A stretch of 64,000 bases of DNA from Desulforamulus ferrireducens (lineage in GTDB: Bacteria > Bacillota > Desulfotomaculia > Desulfotomaculales > Desulfotomaculaceae). This document shows, piece by piece, positions 42,486-51,439 of this stretch. A program made the position numbers and the translations under genes. The notes under the pieces were generated by a model. The model made no database searches. It was not told the DNA's origin and saw nothing but the letters and a program-made list of their open reading frames with translations. The stretch is from assembly GCF_002005145.1 (NCBI RefSeq), contig NZ_CP019698.1, forward strand, positions 682,001 to 746,000, read 5' to 3'. Each line of letters starts with the position of its first letter. Position 1 is the first letter of the stretch.

Positions 42486-42707
42486 ATGACACTGGACAAA
42501 TGCAAGAGAGGACAAAGGCTGCAAATTACGAGTATTCCTGATGAGGTGGTTAGAGCTCAGGCTATCCGTTTTGGGATTGCCGAAGGTTCTGTTGTTACCT
42601 GCGAAGAGGTTGTCCCTGCAGGTCCTGTGGTTTTAAGTATGTTTAAACAACAAATTGCCATTGGACGGCAATTGGCTAAAAGTATAACTGTTTTACCGGT
42701 TAACTAA
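42486..42707 (+). CDS. feoA: FeoA ferrous-iron transport accessory protein
   Basis: A 73-residue SH3-like FeoA domain (CKRGQRLQITSIPDEVVRAQAIRFGIAEGSVVTCEEVVPAGPVVL). FeoA is a small cytoplasmic partner of the FeoB transporter. TTGGAGGG precedes ATG. feoB follows after 96 bases, which contain a TTAAGG/CCTTAA hairpin (42763-42778). Confidence 0.93.
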   Translation: MTLDKCKRGQRLQITSIPDEVVRAQAIRFGIAEGSVVTCEEVVPAGPVVLSMFKQQIAIGRQLAKSITVLPVN

Positions 42708-42803
42708 AGACCACAATTTTCAGCGGCTTTGCCGCCCCTCTGAGATAAGTTTTATGATGCCGTTAAGGCATTCCTTAACTAATAAAATATAAGAGGTACT
42801 TAC

Positions 42804-44741
42804 ATGGAAAACAACAATTCTCAGCGGGAGTGTATAACCGGCAAAAATATTGTGCTGGTGGGAAATCCCAATGTGGGAAAATCCGTGTTTTTTAATTATT
42901 TAACCGGGCGCTACGTGGATGTAGCGAATTTTCCCGGTACAACCACCAACGTTATATGTGGTCGCTGCGGCGACGATGCAATTACAGACACCCCGGGAAT
43001 TTACGGCATTTCCTCATTTAATGAGGAAGAGAAAATTACCCGGGATATTGTTTTACATGGAGATATTTTGGTAAATATTGTTGATGCCGTTCATTTGGAA
43101 AGGGATTTGTTCTTAACCCAACAACTTATCGATACCGGTTTGCCTGTGGTAGTTGTTTTGAATATGATGGATGAGGCACAGCGTCAGGGTATCAAGATAG
43201 ATCTTAAGGTGTTAAGGGAACTTTTAGGAGTACCTGTTCTGTCTACGGTGGCTGTAGATGGCCGTGGCATGGACAAATTGAAAGAGACCATTTGTCAGGC
43301 TAAAGTGGGTCGGGTGCTGCCCTTGGTGGCAGAAAAGCTAACAGAACTCCCGGCTCATATCAGGCGTTCGGAAAAGCTCTTAATTTTAGAGGGTGACCAA
43401 CTTGTGGCGGCCAGAAACGGTCTGCCGCCGGGTGCCTACCGGGAGCAAATCTATGGTGCCAGACGTCGCTGGATCAACGATGTGGTTGCTATGGCTGTCA
43501 AGGAGAGCAGCAGGCAGGAGACATGGACCGCAGTATTGGGACGCTGGATGATTCAACCCATCACCGGCATACCCCTGTTAGCCTTAACCTTATGGGGACT
43601 GTACCAGTTAGTTGGCGTTTTTGTAGCTCAGACAGTGGTGGGTTTTACGGAAGAAATTCTTATGGGAGAGTATTTTGAGCCAACTGCCCGAGCTATAGTA
43701 GGGCAACTGTTTGCCCCGGATTCTACCATTAGTCAAATTTTAGTGGGTCATTTTGGGGTAATTACCATGACCGTGACCTATTTGCTGGGTTTGCTGTTCC
43801 CGCTGGTACTGGGCTTTAACTTGGTATTAGCAGTGTTGGAGGATACAGGCTACCTGCCCAGAATTGCTACCTTGCTGGATCGACTGTTAATGTCCTTTGG
43901 GCTGAATGGCCAGGCTGTTATTCCCCTGGTGTTGGGTTTTGGCTGTGTAACCATGGCGCTGATGTCCACCCGTTTACTGGGCACCGACAGAGAACGGCGT
44001 ATTGCCACCATTATCCTGGCATTAACGGTTCCCTGTTCTGCTCAGTTAGCTATCATTGCTACCATGTTAGCCGGTTTAGGACCAGAATTTGCTTTGGTCT
44101 ATGTACTCATCATAATTAGCGTATTTGTTATGGGCGGCACCCTATTAAATCGCCTGATACCGGGACAATCTTCCTCGCTGTGGATTGATTTACCCCCCTT
44201 AAGACTGCCACGCCTGGCTAACGTATTGAAAAAAAGTTGGAATAAAAGTTTTGAATTTATTAGAGAAGCCGCCCCGCTATTTGCCTTAGGGGCTCTTTGC
44301 CTGGGGTTACTGGAAGTCTCGGGTTCACTGGAAAAAATTGAGAATACCCTGGTGCCTTTGACTGTTCATTGGCTGGGCCTGCCTAAAGAAGCAGCCAGTG
44401 GCTTTATTATGGGCGTTATTCGCAGAGAATTTGGTACAGCGGGATTGTTTTCTTTTCCCATGAGTGATGTACAAAAACTGGTGGCTCTTACCACCATCAC
44501 ATTATTTGTTCCTTGTATTGCCTCAGCTATGGTAATCTATAAGGAAAGGGGTTGGCAAGAGGGCACTGCCATTTGGTTAGGAGTCATTGGTATAGCCTTC
44601 GTCATAGGTGGACTTATTAATCAACTATTAGGCTTTTTTAGCAGCAACCTGTCAGCCACCTCCCCCATTATCATGCTGGCCGGGGTCATTTTATTAACCA
44701 TGGTTGGTGTACTAGGAATCACTGTCAGAAGTGAACGGTAA
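42804..44741 (+). CDS. feoB: FeoB ferrous-iron transporter, first copy
   Basis: The 645-residue protein has an N-terminal G domain: P-loop GNPNVGKSVFF, switch I PGTTTN, DTPGIYG, and NMMD for guanine. A helical linker and the polytopic transport domain with two Gate regions (LLFPLVLGFNLVLAVLEDTGYLPR; VTLFVPC-type TLFVPCIASAMV) follow. It transports Fe(II) under anoxic conditions. Unlike the second copy it has no N-terminal CxxC. AGAGGT precedes ATG. dacF and a fur-family gene follow on the same strand. Confidence 0.94.
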   Translation: MENNNSQRECITGKNIVLVGNPNVGKSVFFNYLTGRYVDVANFPGTTTNVICGRCGDDAITDTPGIYGISSFNEEEKITRDIVLHGDILVNIVDAVHLERDLFLTQQLIDTGLPVVVVLNMMDEAQRQGIKIDLKVLRELLGVPVLSTVAVDGRGMDKLKETICQAKVGRVLPLVAEKLTELPAHIRRSEKLLILEGDQLVAARNGLPPGAYREQIYGARRRWINDVVAMAVKESSRQETWTAVLGRWMIQPITGIPLLALTLWGLYQLVGVFVAQTVVGFTEEILMGEYFEPTARAIVGQLFAPDSTISQILVGHFGVITMTVTYLLGLLFPLVLGFNLVLAVLEDTGYLPRIATLLDRLLMSFGLNGQAVIPLVLGFGCVTMALMSTRLLGTDRERRIATIILALTVPCSAQLAIIATMLAGLGPEFALVYVLIIISVFVMGGTLLNRLIPGQSSSLWIDLPPLRLPRLANVLKKSWNKSFEFIREAAPLFALGALCLGLLEVSGSLEKIENTLVPLTVHWLGLPKEAASGFIMGVIRREFGTAGLFSFPMSDVQKLVALTTITLFVPCIASAMVIYKERGWQEGTAIWLGVIGIAFVIGGLINQLLGFFSSNLSATSPIIMLAGVILLTMVGVLGITVRSER

Positions 44742-44796
44742 AGGATATTACTGTGGCTTCCTTTGACGTTTTTATTAATGCTTATAAGGTGATATT

Positions 44797-46023
44797 GTGC
44801 GTAATAGACTATTATGTATGCTTCTGTTCCTAATACTTCCGGCCTTTTTAGTAACTCCCGCCGCAGCTGAGGAACCTCAGGTGGTGGGGGAAACAGCGGC
44901 TTTAATTGATGCTCAAAGCGGTATGCTGCTTTATGGTAAAGAGCCTCATAAAAAAATGTATCCTGCCAGCACCACCAAAGTATTAACTGCCCTGGTGGCA
45001 TTGGAGAAGGCGAAAATGACTGATCTAGTGACCATTGGGGCTAATCCCATTCATGCTGGGGGTACCTCCATCTGGTTGGCTGAGGGGGAAAAATTATCAT
45101 TAGAGGAACTGCTCTATGCCCTTATGCTAAATTCTGCCAATGACGCCGGAGTGGCCATTGCGGAGCACGTGGCTGGTTCAGTAGAGGAATTTACTAAACT
45201 CTTAAACCAAAAAGCCTTGCAGTTAGGAGCTAAGAACACTCATTTTGTAAATCCCCATGGCATGCCTAACGAAAATCATTATTCCACTGCCTACGATTTA
45301 GCGCTTATTGGGCGAGAGGCCCTGAAGAATCAGGAGTTACGAAAAATTGTCACCACAGTACATCATGAAATTCCAAGAGCGGACCCAGAAGCACAAAAGT
45401 ATTTGTTTAACCATAACAAGTTACTTTGGAGTAAAACCTTCGGCTATGAGGGTGCCACAGGCTTAAAAACAGGTTATACCGTTGAGGCTGGACAATGTAT
45501 AATCGCCTCTGCAAAGCGGGATGGAAGGGAACTAATAGCTGTAGTACTGCGTACCGAAGGAAATAACCTGTGGTATGATGCCAGTAAACTATTGGATTAT
45601 GGCTTTAATAATTTTCAAAATCGCCAACTGGTTCAGCGCGGTAAGGTTATGGCCAATGTACCAGTTAAATATGGTAAGTCCAATGTTAATTTGGTAGCCA
45701 GTGAAGATTACATCCACACCTTTCCCAAAGAGAGCATCAAGGACTTGCAGATAATTACTGAACCAGCGACAGAGATTGAAGCACCGGTGACTAAAGGGCA
45801 GGTGCTGGGTAAGGTTATTATCAAAGATGGGGTAAAACAGGTAGCTATGGTAAACCTGGTGGCAGCTGAAGATATACCGAAGGATTGGTTAGCCATCTGC
45901 AAAACCCTACTTTATTGGGGACTACCTCCTTTTTTATTTATACTATGGCTGAGAAGGAAAAGACGCCTGCGTAGAATTCGCCAACAAAGACTGGCCAGAC
46001 GTCGTAAATATGCTGAATTTTAA
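44797..46023 (+). CDS. D-alanyl-D-alanine carboxypeptidase (DacF/PBP5 family)
   Basis: The 408-residue protein has a signal peptide (LLCMLLFLILPAFLVTPAAA) and penicillin-binding active-site motifs: S58-TTK (PASTTKV), SAN (LNSANDAG) and KTG (LKTGYT). The PBP5 C-terminal beta domain follows, with a C-terminal membrane segment and a strongly basic tail (RRKRRLRRIRQQ). It trims the terminal D-Ala of peptidoglycan, possibly also in sporulation. Start GTG 44797 is behind AAGGTGAT. It lies 55 bases after feoB and just before the fur-family gene. Confidence 0.93.
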   Translation: MRNRLLCMLLFLILPAFLVTPAAAEEPQVVGETAALIDAQSGMLLYGKEPHKKMYPASTTKVLTALVALEKAKMTDLVTIGANPIHAGGTSIWLAEGEKLSLEELLYALMLNSANDAGVAIAEHVAGSVEEFTKLLNQKALQLGAKNTHFVNPHGMPNENHYSTAYDLALIGREALKNQELRKIVTTVHHEIPRADPEAQKYLFNHNKLLWSKTFGYEGATGLKTGYTVEAGQCIIASAKRDGRELIAVVLRTEGNNLWYDASKLLDYGFNNFQNRQLVQRGKVMANVPVKYGKSNVNLVASEDYIHTFPKESIKDLQIITEPATEIEAPVTKGQVLGKVIIKDGVKQVAMVNLVAAEDIPKDWLAICKTLLYWGLPPFLFILWLRRKRRLRRIRQQRLARRRKYAEF

Positions 46024-46096
46024 TCATCATAACCCAATTGACACTCAAAAGAAAAAGAAATATACTGGAAAAAAGATTTCAGGTGGTGTGGTTGGG

Positions 46097-46543
46097 TTGA
46101 AGAGAATTATCAACGAAGTTGGAGACAAGCTCAAGGCCAATGATTATAAGTTAACAACCCAGCGGCAGCAAATCCTCGAGGTTTTGTTGGAGAGTAAGGA
46201 TCAACACCTCAGCGCAGAGGATATCTATACACTGGTGAAAAAAAAGGCACCGGATGTGGGCTTGGCCACGGTTTACAGAACCTTAGAGCTGTTTTTGGAA
46301 CACGATATTATTCATAGTGTGAATTTTGGTGATGGACGTAAACGTTACGAATATGGACATAGTTCCTCCGGCCACCACCATCATCATGCGATTTGTCTTA
46401 ATTGCGGCAAGATTATCGAGATCAACGAGGACTTGTTGGAAGAATTGGAAAAACAGGTTGGCATTGATTATAACTTTACGGTTACTGATCACGAGTTAAA
46501 GATATATGGCTATTGTGGAGAATGTAACCAAAATAATAAGTAA
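46097..46543 (+). CDS. Fur-family metal-responsive repressor
   Basis: The roughly 148-residue protein has a winged helix (YKLTTQRQQILEVLLES...DVGLATVYRTLELF) and dimerisation domain with a His-rich metal site (HHHHHAICLNCGKIIE) and the second structural Cys pair (CGEC). Fur rather than PerR or Zur is likely from the nearby Feo genes with Fur-box-like sites; this is inference. TTG 46097 is favoured (AGGTGG ten bases upstream). A longer in-frame start at ATG 46010 overlaps dacF without a ribosome site. Confidence 0.88.
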   Translation: MKRIINEVGDKLKANDYKLTTQRQQILEVLLESKDQHLSAEDIYTLVKKKAPDVGLATVYRTLELFLEHDIIHSVNFGDGRKRYEYGHSSSGHHHHHAICLNCGKIIEINEDLLEELEKQVGIDYNFTVTDHELKIYGYCGECNQNNK

Positions 46544-46548
46544 CACAG

Positions 46549-46575
46549 GGGACTGCTCAAACAGTCCCTTTTTGT
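46549..46575 (+). terminator. Terminator after the fur-family gene
   Basis: GGGACTG/CAGTCCC with a 6-base loop, followed by TTTTTG. Confidence 0.88.
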
Positions 46576-46663
46576 TTTTATGCGAAAAAGTGACCTAATT
46601 CTAACACGTAAATTCCCTGGAATGATATAATAAGATTACCCACTACCTAAGGGGTGTTGCGGG

Positions 46664-48346
46664 ATGTTGGAAAAGTTAATTTATAACCAGCGCATACGAA
46701 CTTCTATACTTTTTGGATTTATTTTATTTATTATTGTGCCTACTTTGCTGGTAGGGATATTTAGCTTTGTGCAGAGTATACAGGTGATCGAACGCTCTGT
46801 TTTTCAGACGTTGGAATACCTCTCCACATCCCAGGAAAATACCATCAACACTTGGGTTAAAGATCGCAAAACCTTTATTGAGGGGTTAGCCCAAGATAAT
46901 CAATTAACTGATCCGGAAGCTCAAGATGTAGCTAATCTCTTATTGACTGCCCTGAAGATGGATAGCAATTTTCTTACTTTGGTGCTGGTGGACAAGGATG
47001 GTGTTATTAAGGTTGACCCCACCAACCAAGCCATGGGGAGAGAGGTGGAGGCCTCAGTTATTGACCGGGAGTATTTTCAGCAGGCCCTAATTGGCCATAC
47101 CTATGTTAGCGAAGTACTGCTAAGCCGTAGTAATAACGAACCGGTAATGTTTTTTGCCACCCCGATAAGGAAAAACGAGGAAATTGTGGGCGTACTCTTT
47201 GGCGTGGTACATATTGAGGCTATTACTCAGTTAGTGCAGCATAACTATCCGGGCGACTATGGGGAATCCTATTTAGTAAGTGAAACAGGCTTAATGCTAA
47301 GTCAATCCAAATTTACCGAGCAACCTACAGCCTTTCGGTTGCAAATGAAAGAAGTGCCCATTGAAGTTATTGTCAAAGGTGGTGCTGGGAAGTCAATTTA
47401 CCAAAATTACCTGGATAAAAGGGTTTTTGGTGTATATCGGTGGCTACCTGAAATCCAAATGGGACTGGTAGTAGAAAAAGAGTACACCAGGGCATTATTG
47501 GAGTATGGTTTGACAACCTACATTAAAGTGGCCATTTCCTCCATACTGATTATTAGCTTGTTTATTCTATATGCCATGTATTATTCACGGCGACTAAGCC
47601 AACCCATTGAACTCTTAGTAGATGAAGTGAACCACATCGCCGAGGGCAGTTATCGATCCATTATTGATCTTCCGGCCAACAAGGAATTAAAAGAACTGGC
47701 CAGAGCCATTAATCATATGTCCAACAGCCAGTTGGAGAACAAGAATCAGTTAAATAGCTTAATACAGCGGTTGGAGCAGGATGCGGAAAGTCTTTACGAG
47801 GAGAAAAATAAACTTGCTAGAATTTCTATCACGGATGAATTAACAGGATTACACAATAGAAGGTATTTAAGGCAAGAGCTACATCGCCTAACTCATCTCA
47901 GTAAATCTTTACAAAAGAATATCTCTGTCTTGAGTCTAGACTTAGACCGTTTTAAAGTTGTTAATGACACCTATGGTCATGACACCGGTGATATAGTATT
48001 AAAGGAATTTGCTAATCTGCTGCGCTCTTCCCAACGGGGCACCGATGTGGTGGGGCGTTTTGGTGGAGAAGAATTTATTGTCATCATTCCCTTTGTTGGT
48101 GGCAGGCAGGTCAAAGAAATCGCTGAGCGAATAAGACAGGCAGTGAGTGATTTTACCTTTGATGCCAATCACAACAATATTCATGTGACGGTAAGTATAG
48201 GTGTGGTAACCCTTATCCCTTCTCCTGACGAACCAACTCAAAAGGTAGTTGAGCAATTACTAAAAGAAGCAGATAAAGGTCTTTACCAAGCTAAAAATTC
48301 AGGCAGAAATAAAGTAATTCACATAGATTTAACTAACGGCAATTAA
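46664..48346 (+). CDS. Membrane diguanylate cyclase with extracytoplasmic sensor
   Basis: The 560-residue protein has TM1 at about 15-37 and an extracytoplasmic dCache-like sensor of about 240 residues (VDKDGVIKVDP, DREYFQQAL, VFFATPIRKNEEIVGVLFG). TM2 lies at about 290-308, followed by a HAMP linker and a GGDEF domain. The active-site motif is GGEEF (about residue 466), and an RxxD inhibitory site (RGTD) lies five residues before it. It should make c-di-GMP in response to an external small ligand. AGGGGTG precedes ATG; TATAAT lies at about 46627. Confidence 0.92.
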   Translation: MLEKLIYNQRIRTSILFGFILFIIVPTLLVGIFSFVQSIQVIERSVFQTLEYLSTSQENTINTWVKDRKTFIEGLAQDNQLTDPEAQDVANLLLTALKMDSNFLTLVLVDKDGVIKVDPTNQAMGREVEASVIDREYFQQALIGHTYVSEVLLSRSNNEPVMFFATPIRKNEEIVGVLFGVVHIEAITQLVQHNYPGDYGESYLVSETGLMLSQSKFTEQPTAFRLQMKEVPIEVIVKGGAGKSIYQNYLDKRVFGVYRWLPEIQMGLVVEKEYTRALLEYGLTTYIKVAISSILIISLFILYAMYYSRRLSQPIELLVDEVNHIAEGSYRSIIDLPANKELKELARAINHMSNSQLENKNQLNSLIQRLEQDAESLYEEKNKLARISITDELTGLHNRRYLRQELHRLTHLSKSLQKNISVLSLDLDRFKVVNDTYGHDTGDIVLKEFANLLRSSQRGTDVVGRFGGEEFIVIIPFVGGRQVKEIAERIRQAVSDFTFDANHNNIHVTVSIGVVTLIPSPDEPTQKVVEQLLKEADKGLYQAKNSGRNKVIHIDLTNGN

Positions 48347-48396
48347 GTTTGAAAGTAATGGATTAGATTACTGAAGGGGATGTTGCGCGATTAGGT

Positions 48397-48740
48397 GATG
48401 ATGCGTATTGGCCATCAGCCATCAGCCTTCGGCTTTTTGACCTTAGGTCATAGACCATAAGCCATTGGCCTTTTTTGACCTCCCTCTTTGAGGGAGGTGG
48501 CGGCACAGCCGCCGGAGGGAGTTGGACCCAAAATTAACTCCCCCAGTCGCTTCGCGACGCGGCCCCCGACCCCTCGGCGAGGGGTCTATTTTATTCCCTC
48601 TCCCCATGGGAATGTGCTACGAGTACCAGGTTTAATCCAACTAAGCCAATGGCTAATATTTAGCCGACGGCCGATGGCCGATGGCTGACGGCCTAAAAAA
48701 AGGAAGTGTCACATTACCGTAGTAATGCAACACTACCTTA
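48397..48740 (-). repeat. Mosaic intergenic repeat, copy C (inverted, long form)
   Basis: Read on the minus strand: hairpin AAGGTAGTGT...ACACTTCCTT followed by seven T (terminator for the second feo operon); GGCC words (48662-48694); the GGATTAAACCTGGTACT segment; the CCCCTC module; a GACCTAAGGTC block; GGCC words; and the right end AATACGCATCATC. The module's stem-loops are ACCTCCCTC/GAGGGAGGT (48478-48498), GGCGGC/GCCGCC (48500-48514) and GTCGC/GCGAC (48546-48558). It fills the gap between convergent genes; no other gene is present. Confidence 0.82.
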
Positions 48741-48748
48741 CTGTATTT

Positions 48749-48907
48749 CTACTTTTCCTTGCTTTGGCCGCATTTGGAGCAATTCCCGGAACAGCCGCTG
48801 GGAATGGGTTCCCGGCATCTGGGACAAACCAGAGTTAGCATCTCCACGGGACAGTGACAACGGGGACAGGTTTTTTTATGCTGGCATGTTTTTTCTGTTA
48901 CTTTCAT
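48749..48907 (-). CDS. Cys-rich 52-residue protein coupled to feoB
   Basis: The start codon overlaps the feoB stop by one base (TAATG), so translation is coupled. The product (start MKVTEKTCQHKKTCPRCHC) has nine Cys in 52 residues, arranged as three CxxC pairs (CPRC, CPRC, CSKC) with additional Cys, like a double zinc ribbon. It has no membrane segment. FeoC-type or Cys-rich FeoB partners are known in other bacteria, but this is not the classical FeoC winged helix nor the membrane-anchored Cys-rich form. A metal- or redox-sensing partner of FeoB is an inference. Confidence 0.75.
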   Translation of the reverse strand: MKVTEKTCQHKKTCPRCHCPVEMLTLVCPRCREPIPSGCSGNCSKCGQSKEK

Positions 48908-50892
48908 TATGCCACACCGCCTGATTTAGAACTGTCGGACAGAGGAGTTTTTTTCGTGAAACGAACCAACAGTATGGTTAAGGCCGCCAAAGTCCAAACA
49001 GCGCCAATCACAGACACCACTTCAAAGGGTGTGGAAACACCCAGCCATTGGGATAACTTAGCCACCATACCGCCGATCAAGAAGGCGATGACCCAGGTAC
49101 TTAACCACATAATGGCTGCCTCCTTTTTAGTACGTTCCTTAAACATGACCAGGACAGAGGCAATGCAAGGGACGAAGAGGGTAATGGTTGTTAAGGATAC
49201 TACCACTTGGATTGGTGTTAAGGTCATATCTGCTAAGCCTGCGGCGCCGAAGTCCCGACGGACAACCCCCATAATAAAGGCGGTGGCTGCTTCCTTGGGT
49301 AAACCGAGCCAACCCACGGTCAGGGGAGCCAGGGCATTTTGCAAAAATGTCAATATTCCAGTGACCTGGAAAACGCTAATTAGCAGGGCACCCAGGGCAA
49401 AGAGGGGAAAGGCCTCTTTGAGAAATTGGTAAGACTTAATACCTGTTTTGGTTAACACGTTATTTAATCTAGGAAAACGTAAGGGTGGCAGATCAATTAA
49501 TAGGTTGGAAGATTGTCCTGGCAGTAGGGCGTTCATGAGGGTACCCACCACCACTAGCACTGCCAAAATTACCAAGGCGTAGAGGGCCACAAAGGCAGGT
49601 CCCACCGCTGCTAACATACCGGCAATAACACCCAATTGAGCCGAACAGGGGATAGCCAAGCCCAAGAGGAAAATAGCAATTCTTCTTTCCCTTTCAGAAC
49701 CCAGCAGTCTGGTAGTAATGGTGGCCATGGTGACACAGCCAAGACCCAGAATTAAAGGTATCACAGCTCGTCCGTTGAGGCCGATACCGGTAAGAACACG
49801 GTCCACCAGGGTAGCCAGACGGGGCAGATAGCCGGAATCCTCAAACAGCGAAAGGAAGAAGTAAAAACCTACCACCAGAGGCATTAAAAGTCCTAAAACA
49901 TAGGTAAAGGTCATAGTCAAGACGCCAAACTCGCCAATTAGAATAGTTCCTAAAATGCTATCTTCACTAATGATGCTGCCTACCAAGCTTCTCACAGCAG
50001 GTTCATAGTGGCCAATCATGATGGTTTCTTCAGTTATACCCACCACAGTACCGGCCACAAATATACCAATGATTTGGTACATGGCATAGAGGGCAACCAG
50101 CAGAATGGGTATACCGGTAAGGGGTTTGATCATCATCCGGCTAAGGCTGTTGGCAAAGGAGGTAGCTTTGCTGGTTTCTTTGAGTACTTGCCCAACTATC
50201 CGGTTAACCCTTTGGCGCCGCTGCAGATAAATGGCTTCCCGCTGATCCAAAGGCTGCAGGCCATGTCTTTCGGCTACGGCAGCGTCCCCTTCCAGAATTA
50301 ACAGGGCTTCACCGCGACTACCCACTCTGTTTATCAGTTTATCCAACTCCTGCTGCAAATGTCCGTCGGTATGCCCCCGACGAGCCTGGGACAGTTGTTG
50401 TTTAACTTCCTCCAAGCCTTGCTTTTGCACAGCCACAGTGGGAATAACCGGTACACCCAGCAGTTGACTTAATAATTGATGATCCACCTGAATGCCCTGT
50501 TTAGTTGCTTCATCTACCATATTGAGGGCTACCAATACCGGTACGCCTGTGTCAATAATTTGTTGGGTCAGAAATAAATCCCGTTCCAAATAAACTGCAT
50601 TGACCACATTAATCACCACATCGGCGGTGAGGATAACATCCCGGGCTACTCTTTCCTCATCGTTAAAGGAAGATATGCCGTAAACTCCAGGGGTGTCTAC
50701 AACCACATCCTTTTCCCAACGACCGTAGGATATTTCCAGGGTGGTGCCGGGGTAATTGGAAACATCCACATACATGCCGGTAAGGTAATTAAAAAATACC
50801 GATTTTCCGGCATTGGGGTTACCGGCCAGCACAATCCGCCGTGCCCCTTCGGGAATATCTATTTTTACACTACATCCATGACAGTGGGACAT
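48907..50892 (-). CDS. feoB: FeoB ferrous-iron transporter, second copy
   Basis: The 661-residue protein begins with a Cys-x2-Cys motif (MSHCHGCSVKI) before the G domain (GNPNAGKSVFFNYL, PGTTLE, DTPGVYG, NMVDE). The helical linker and polytopic transport core follow, with Gate motifs (LLMPLVVGFYFFLSLFEDSGYLPR, TLFVPCIASVLV). It is clearly a paralogue of the copy at 42804. ATG 50892 has AAGGAG nine bases upstream; a GTG three codons earlier is too close to it. Operon order: feoA, feoB, Cys-rich protein. Confidence 0.94.
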   Translation of the reverse strand: MSHCHGCSVKIDIPEGARRIVLAGNPNAGKSVFFNYLTGMYVDVSNYPGTTLEISYGRWEKDVVVDTPGVYGISSFNDEERVARDVILTADVVINVVNAVYLERDLFLTQQIIDTGVPVLVALNMVDEATKQGIQVDHQLLSQLLGVPVIPTVAVQKQGLEEVKQQLSQARRGHTDGHLQQELDKLINRVGSRGEALLILEGDAAVAERHGLQPLDQREAIYLQRRQRVNRIVGQVLKETSKATSFANSLSRMMIKPLTGIPILLVALYAMYQIIGIFVAGTVVGITEETIMIGHYEPAVRSLVGSIISEDSILGTILIGEFGVLTMTFTYVLGLLMPLVVGFYFFLSLFEDSGYLPRLATLVDRVLTGIGLNGRAVIPLILGLGCVTMATITTRLLGSERERRIAIFLLGLAIPCSAQLGVIAGMLAAVGPAFVALYALVILAVLVVVGTLMNALLPGQSSNLLIDLPPLRFPRLNNVLTKTGIKSYQFLKEAFPLFALGALLISVFQVTGILTFLQNALAPLTVGWLGLPKEAATAFIMGVVRRDFGAAGLADMTLTPIQVVVSLTTITLFVPCIASVLVMFKERTKKEAAIMWLSTWVIAFLIGGMVAKLSQWLGVSTPFEVVSVIGAVWTLAALTILLVRFTKKTPLSDSSKSGGVA

Positions 50893-50964
50893 AAAGGTCA
50901 CTCCTTAGTTGTAATAATTCCGTGAACGCCCTTTCCCAAATGCTTGGGTTTCATAATCAGCTAG

Positions 50965-51183
50965 CTAGTTAAGACTTATACTAATCTCCTTGGCTAACTG
51001 ACGACCCATGGCGATTTGCTGGCGATTTTTACGAATAACAATGGGACCGGCGGGAACTACCTCCTCGCAGGTAAGCCATTCTCCCTCAGCAATACCAAAA
51101 CGAATGGCTTGGGAACGCACGGTTTCGTTATCAATGCGATTAATCTTAAAGCACTGGCCTCTTTTAATAAGATCTAAAGTCAT
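50965..51183 (-). CDS. feoA: FeoA ferrous-iron transport accessory protein, second copy
   Basis: A 72-residue FeoA domain (IKRGQCFKINRIDNETVRSQAIRFGIAEGEWLTCEEVVPAGPIVI), closely similar to the FeoA at 42486, which points to duplication of the feoAB pair. AAGGAGTG precedes ATG. It lies downstream of two Fur-box-like sites and 72 bases before feoB. Confidence 0.93.
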   Translation of the reverse strand: MTLDLIKRGQCFKINRIDNETVRSQAIRFGIAEGEWLTCEEVVPAGPIVIRKNRQQIAMGRQLAKEISISLN

Positions 51184-51202: not shown

Positions 51203-51221
51203 GAATATGATAATCATTATC
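51203..51221 (-). promoter_or_regulatory. Fur box upstream of the second feoA
   Basis: GAATATGATAATCATTATC matches the Fur consensus at 17 of 19 positions and contains the perfect core GATAATCATTATC. It lies 20 bases before the feoA start on the minus strand. Confidence 0.85.
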
Positions 51222-51297
51222 AATAAGTAATTAGATCAGTGCATATCCGCTGGGAAAAAACTATTTCATTAAAGTGGATTTATACACCTTGATAATT

Positions 51298-51316
51298 GTA
51301 AATGAAAATCATTATC
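51298..51316. promoter_or_regulatory. Second Fur-box-like site in the feoA/TyrR-like divergent region
   Basis: GTAAATGAAAATCATTATC matches the Fur consensus at 16 of 19 positions. It lies about 115 bases upstream of feoA and 124 bases upstream of the divergent sigma-54 activator, so it could serve either. Confidence 0.7.
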
Positions 51317-51439
51317 ATTTCTGATTTCAGTATATGTCTTACCCATGTGAATGTCAATCCCTTTTCCGGAAAATTTTTGGTCAGCAGGATGAGTTTGTTT
51401 TTATGTCGAAATCTCATCTTTAAGAATTGAGGTGGTGCT

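Follow-up and report, generated by a model that had tools for sequence, protein, structure and literature searches.

A small cysteine-rich protein encoded behind one feoB lineage in Bacillota as a candidate FeoC-like accessory of ferrous iron uptake

Anaerobes take up ferrous iron mainly through the Feo system, and there is still debate over the function of its small accessory proteins. One of these, FeoC, binds NFeoB, carries an Fe-S cluster and controls FeoB turnover. FeoC has been proposed to act on FeoB as an oxygen or iron sensor (PMC8749426, PMC10710835), protecting it from FtsH and being itself destroyed through its oxygen-sensitive Fe-S cluster (PMC10710835). The FeoC cysteine motif reads CxxGxCKxCPx4-7C, and that of the PF12669 protein Cx3-5Cx2-3Cx6-8C (PMC8749426). 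FeoA, FeoB, FeoC and PF12669 are the components named in a study on how Feo evolved, which does not settle how cysteine-rich FeoC-like elements are related (PMC8749426). Here we describe a small cysteine-rich protein, which we name FCR, encoded next to feoB in Desulforamulus ferrireducens. Within the part of the literature covered, we found no description of this protein and no relevant paper that joins FeoB with a zinc-ribbon protein, and a search under the name "FeoD" returned nothing. FCR founds an unnamed family that corresponds to no catalogued one and sits behind one feoB lineage in many Bacillota. A third accessory class of this kind would account for what adjoins feoB in many Bacillota without FeoC.

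The window, by which we mean the whole stretch of 64,000 nucleotides analyzed (NZ_CP019698.1, positions 682,001 to 746,000), contains two complete feoA-feoB operons on opposite strands (42486-51183), separated by about 4 kb in which a fur gene (46010-46543) lies. FCR is the third and last gene of the minus-strand operon, feoA-feoB-FCR. The first gene encodes FeoA (72 residues, 50965-51183; Pfam FeoA, 9e-11) and the second a 664-residue FeoB (48907-50901; Pfam FeoB_N, Gate and FeoB_C and TIGR00437, all above cut-off) that belongs to what we call the FeoB2 clade; FCR itself occupies 48749-48907. A strong intrinsic terminator with a 13-pair stem, a 4-nt loop and a T run (48705-48734, minus strand; fold z-score -4.36) lies directly 3' of FCR. 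At the other end, a sigma-70-like promoter, TTGACA-17-TATACT (11/12; 51329-51357, minus strand), is followed just 3' of its -10 hexamer by a Fur box with one mismatch (51303-51317) and then, 5' of feoA, by a perfect Fur box, TGATAATCATTATCA (51208-51222). Given the promoter and two Fur boxes upstream and the terminator behind FCR, feoA, feoB and FCR appear to form a single transcription unit under Fur control. Across the FCR family, a Fur box at p<=0.05 (mononucleotide shuffles) was found 5' of feoA at 47 of 62 testable loci, and in many loci a fur gene lies 3' of FCR. Searches for Rfam elements near the feo genes and for plasmids found none. Positions 48410-48693 hold an ORF-poor, MITE-like element whose 24-nt inverted-repeat arms are 88% complementary; the genome has about 40 related copies of it at 70-91% identity.

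The FCR protein (MKVTEKTCQHKKTCPRCHCPVEMLTLVCPRCREPIPSGCSGNCSKCGQSKEK) has 52 residues, nine of them cysteines, and three CxxC pairs at residues 14-17, 28-31 and 43-46. Seven cysteines (C14, C17, C28, C31, C39, C43 and C46) are family-wide, while C8 and C19 are genus-specific. The FCR start codon and the feoB stop codon have one base in common (TAATG), and the sequence thus bears out the nine-cysteine, 52-residue ORF overlapping feoB that a first-pass annotation of the window had described. The strict translational coupling claimed on the strength of that overlap is not a trait of the whole family. FCR may depend on feoB translation but need not, because a weak Shine-Dalgarno (SD)-like AGGCGG stands 9 nt 5' of the ATG; moreover, the overlap is a feature of the genus and not of the family, in which FCR starts lie between -29 and +298 nt relative to the feoB stop (123 members; 0 to 60 nt in 91) and are usually preceded by an SD-like sequence of their own, as judged with a loose pattern and automatically chosen starts.

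The nearest named relatives are Desulforamulus aeronauticus and D. putei. In every genome of the genus in which this feoB was found, an FCR orthologue lies directly 3' of it; FCR is missing from two members of the genus that have no match to this FeoB, one genome being 72% complete. Codon analysis of the core gave dN/dS values of mostly 0.02-0.17 among the genus orthologues, a sequence signature of purifying selection. In one genus member (L005 in G006, reverse strand near 1489), ATA replaces the ATG of its relatives, in frame and directly after the feoB stop, possibly as an AUA start, a site of readthrough or an error. Small size and this ATA are the points that would favor a chance ORF or one without function, but the dN/dS values and the recurrence of FCR behind feoB, conserved over dozens of families, refute that reading, to which we attach a practically negligible probability.

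Divergent small ORFs 3' of FeoB in other families of the order have CxxCG..., [RK]CPRC and CxGxCxxC in common; we built profiles from them (A2 and A3) and ran these against 113 genomes from the order and 398 from the phylum. Genomic surroundings were read at 132 profile matches, 125 of which lie at most 400 nt 3' of a same-strand feoB; among the strong matches (E<=1e-6) with read surroundings, 123 of 125 are directly behind feoB. The gene thus occurs beside feoB at more than 120 places, and the absence from this position in other genomes that had been named as a possible refutation was clearly not seen. Family members (median length 54 residues, no other domain) follow the pattern CxxC...CPRC...C-x2/3-C-x2-C with seven cysteines. 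The CxxC...CxRC core is present in all 123 strong feoB-adjacent members and the C-terminal triad in 121 (CX3CX2C in 90, CX2CX2C in 31), counts that are partly circular as evidence because the profile selects for the cysteine pattern; the position beside feoB is evidence independent of it. The two exceptions away from feoB come from the genomes G112 (L089/L229) and G044 (L099/L228), both of which have a FeoB2 without FCR behind it. Both places, L228 and L229, lie near a gene that we take to encode a MidA-type methyltransferase-like protein, and in G044 a presumably DUF456-like gene is adjacent, as it also is behind a linked FCR copy in G013.

The linkage is specific to one FeoB clade. FeoB matches in the order comprise 53 FeoB2-like (about 59-100% identity) and 55 FeoB1-like sequences (about 49-57%), and a hand count over the 113 genomes placed FCR behind 47 of the 53 FeoB2-clade genes and behind none of the 55 FeoB1-clade genes (Fisher 2e-24). 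Conversely, all 49 FCR genomes in the order have a FeoB2-clade feoB. As four genomes have the FeoB2 clade without FCR and two carry FCR elsewhere, FCR is not absolutely required for FeoB2. In a tree of 98 FeoBs, in which copies without FCR linkage were sampled from one order only, FeoB1 forms a single FCR-less clade (SH-aLRT 98) and FCR is spread over most other branches; the FCR label changes 6 times on this tree, compared to 23.1 times in shuffles. The simplest reading of these sequence data is that FCR is old in Bacillota and was lost in the FeoB1 duplicate. Since FCR distinguishes between two paralogous FeoBs within a genome, an accessory effect on FeoB is testable within one cell.

The two FeoBs of the window also differ at their N-termini. 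FeoB 48907-50901 begins (M)TFMSHCHGC, with MSHCHGC encoded at 50872-50892 (minus strand), whereas the other FeoB (42804-44741) has a single cysteine before the G1 motif (CITGKNIV) and, as the first-pass annotation had noted, no CxxC. The N-terminal CxxC to which that annotation had drawn attention is present in the window but not conserved; the clade trait is its HCH part, since FeoB2-clade N-termini share HCH or CH (M-x-HCH). This motif is absent from nearly all FeoB1 proteins and missing in some FCR-linked FeoBs; all six FeoB2-clade copies that have no FCR behind them retain it (one of these, L225, with CC). It is a trait of the FeoB clade and not of the FeoB-FCR pair.

The same motif bears on the main rival to a regulatory role, in which FCR would be an iron acceptor or chaperone whose thiols take Fe(II) from the FeoB pore and pass it to cluster assembly or to Fur, the N-terminal HCH possibly serving as a docking or transfer ligand. 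Seven conserved cysteines, co-regulation by Fur, the operon position and the HCH in FeoBs of the same clade are all compatible with such a role, although the HCH persists in FeoB2-clade copies without FCR and we are aware of no such chaperone in Feo systems. FeoBs without an N-terminal cysteine do tend to be paired with FCRs that have at least four tail cysteines (18/19 vs 25/51; Mann-Whitney p 0.0008), but this trade-off was found after looking at the data, and the apparent cysteine compensation does not hold up once phylogeny is accounted for (median p 0.5 over 5 independent pairs). We consider the chaperone rather unlikely, while noting that linkage to feoB alone cannot separate it from a FeoB regulator. 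A bolder alternative would make FCR the founder of a third, unrelated class of FeoB partners, ancestral in the phylum, whose open three-cysteine site is completed by the FeoB HCH, giving the two proteins a joint metal site for gating or sensing iron import; this we regard as improbable.

Profile searches of Pfam, NCBIfam and PDB placed the window FCR in no family above cut-off; some PDB matches had small E-values, yet no stretch passes alone, and no FeoC structure figured in the list of PDB chains for the FCR profile. None of the FCR places in the 113 genomes matched PF09012 (FeoC) at E<=0.01, a search in which the E. coli control was positive, and none matched PF12669. Hydropathy indicated no membrane helix in FCR (Kyte-Doolittle 19-residue maximum 0.45), and only 1 of 123 members exceeds 1.6. 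These results agree with the earlier view that the protein is neither FeoC nor the membrane cysteine-rich partner, and together with the feoB linkage, the lack of a family match supports the core idea of an undescribed Feo accessory. Zinc-ribbon families matched FCR weakly and below threshold (best E 0.001; DZR on the window FCR, 13 bits vs a cut-off of 27.3). A single-chain AlphaFold model (pLDDT 64, pTM 0.36) and a Foldseek search with it, which found no match better than E 0.3, were too weak to serve as evidence on the fold. A putative zinc ribbon in FCR is therefore suggested by the CxxC pattern and the sub-threshold Pfam matches.

Two further readings build on such a ribbon. FCR might serve constitutively as a structural subunit, its Zn-only ribbon stabilizing a FeoB oligomer or the FeoA-FeoB contact without any sensing. 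The resemblance of CxxC...CPRC to a zinc ribbon and the small, single-domain build of the family would suit this role, but the third cysteine cluster exceeds what one structural Zn needs, unless it is a second Zn site; we judge the structural subunit unlikely, and next in line after the chaperone. Zinc ribbons also often bind DNA or RNA, and FCR carries a net positive charge (10 K+R vs 4 D+E) and has fur downstream in many genomes, as might a protein that regulates the feo or fur genes by binding nucleic acid. That FCR tracks one FeoB clade, with none behind the paralogous FeoB, and that regulation is already explained by the Fur boxes make such a regulator very unlikely.

Based on the operon, its clade-specific linkage and the shared cysteines, we consider FCR a probable metal-binding aid to iron uptake, most likely one that senses metal or redox state in the cytoplasm and acts on FeoB in a FeoC-like manner. 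Our preferred model, which we hold tentatively and at somewhat less than even chances, is that FCR is soluble and cytoplasmic, binds metal and, as an accessory to a single FeoB lineage, exerts FeoC-like, iron- or redox-sensing control of FeoB. The C14/C17 and C28/C31 knuckles would probably form a small structural zinc ribbon, and the C-terminal C-x2/3-C-x2-C triad would probably provide a labile site for iron or Fe-S, through which the iron or redox state of the cytoplasm is reported. When metal-loaded or intact, FCR would bind the cytoplasmic part of FeoB and thereby alter FeoB stability or activity, filling the role of FeoC in enterobacteria with a different fold.

In this comparison, FeoC serves as a functional precedent and not, in our analysis, as a homolog. 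Like FeoC (PF09012), FCR is small, encoded directly 3' of feoB and has a GxCxxC within its cysteine motif; its C-terminal CxGxCxxC often lacks the fourth cysteine of the FeoC motif, however, and the likeness could be convergent. FeoC is a winged-helix domain, whereas no such domain was seen in FCR, with no helix in the low-confidence model, and FCR has two additional CxxC knuckles. With the PF12669 protein, FCR has in common that it is small, cysteine-rich and encoded directly behind feoB in Firmicutes, but the former is a membrane protein and FCR is soluble by hydropathy. One contig of genome G059 (L231) carries both arrangements, a FeoB2 followed by FCR and a distant FeoB followed by a PF12669-like membrane cysteine-rich protein; in this genome, different FeoBs have different small partners. 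Finally, FCR shares the CxxC...CxxC knuckles of the zinc ribbon and double zinc ribbon families (Zn_Ribbon_1, DZR and others) and is set apart from them by its third cluster, C-x2/3-C-x2-C, and by its strict linkage to feoB.
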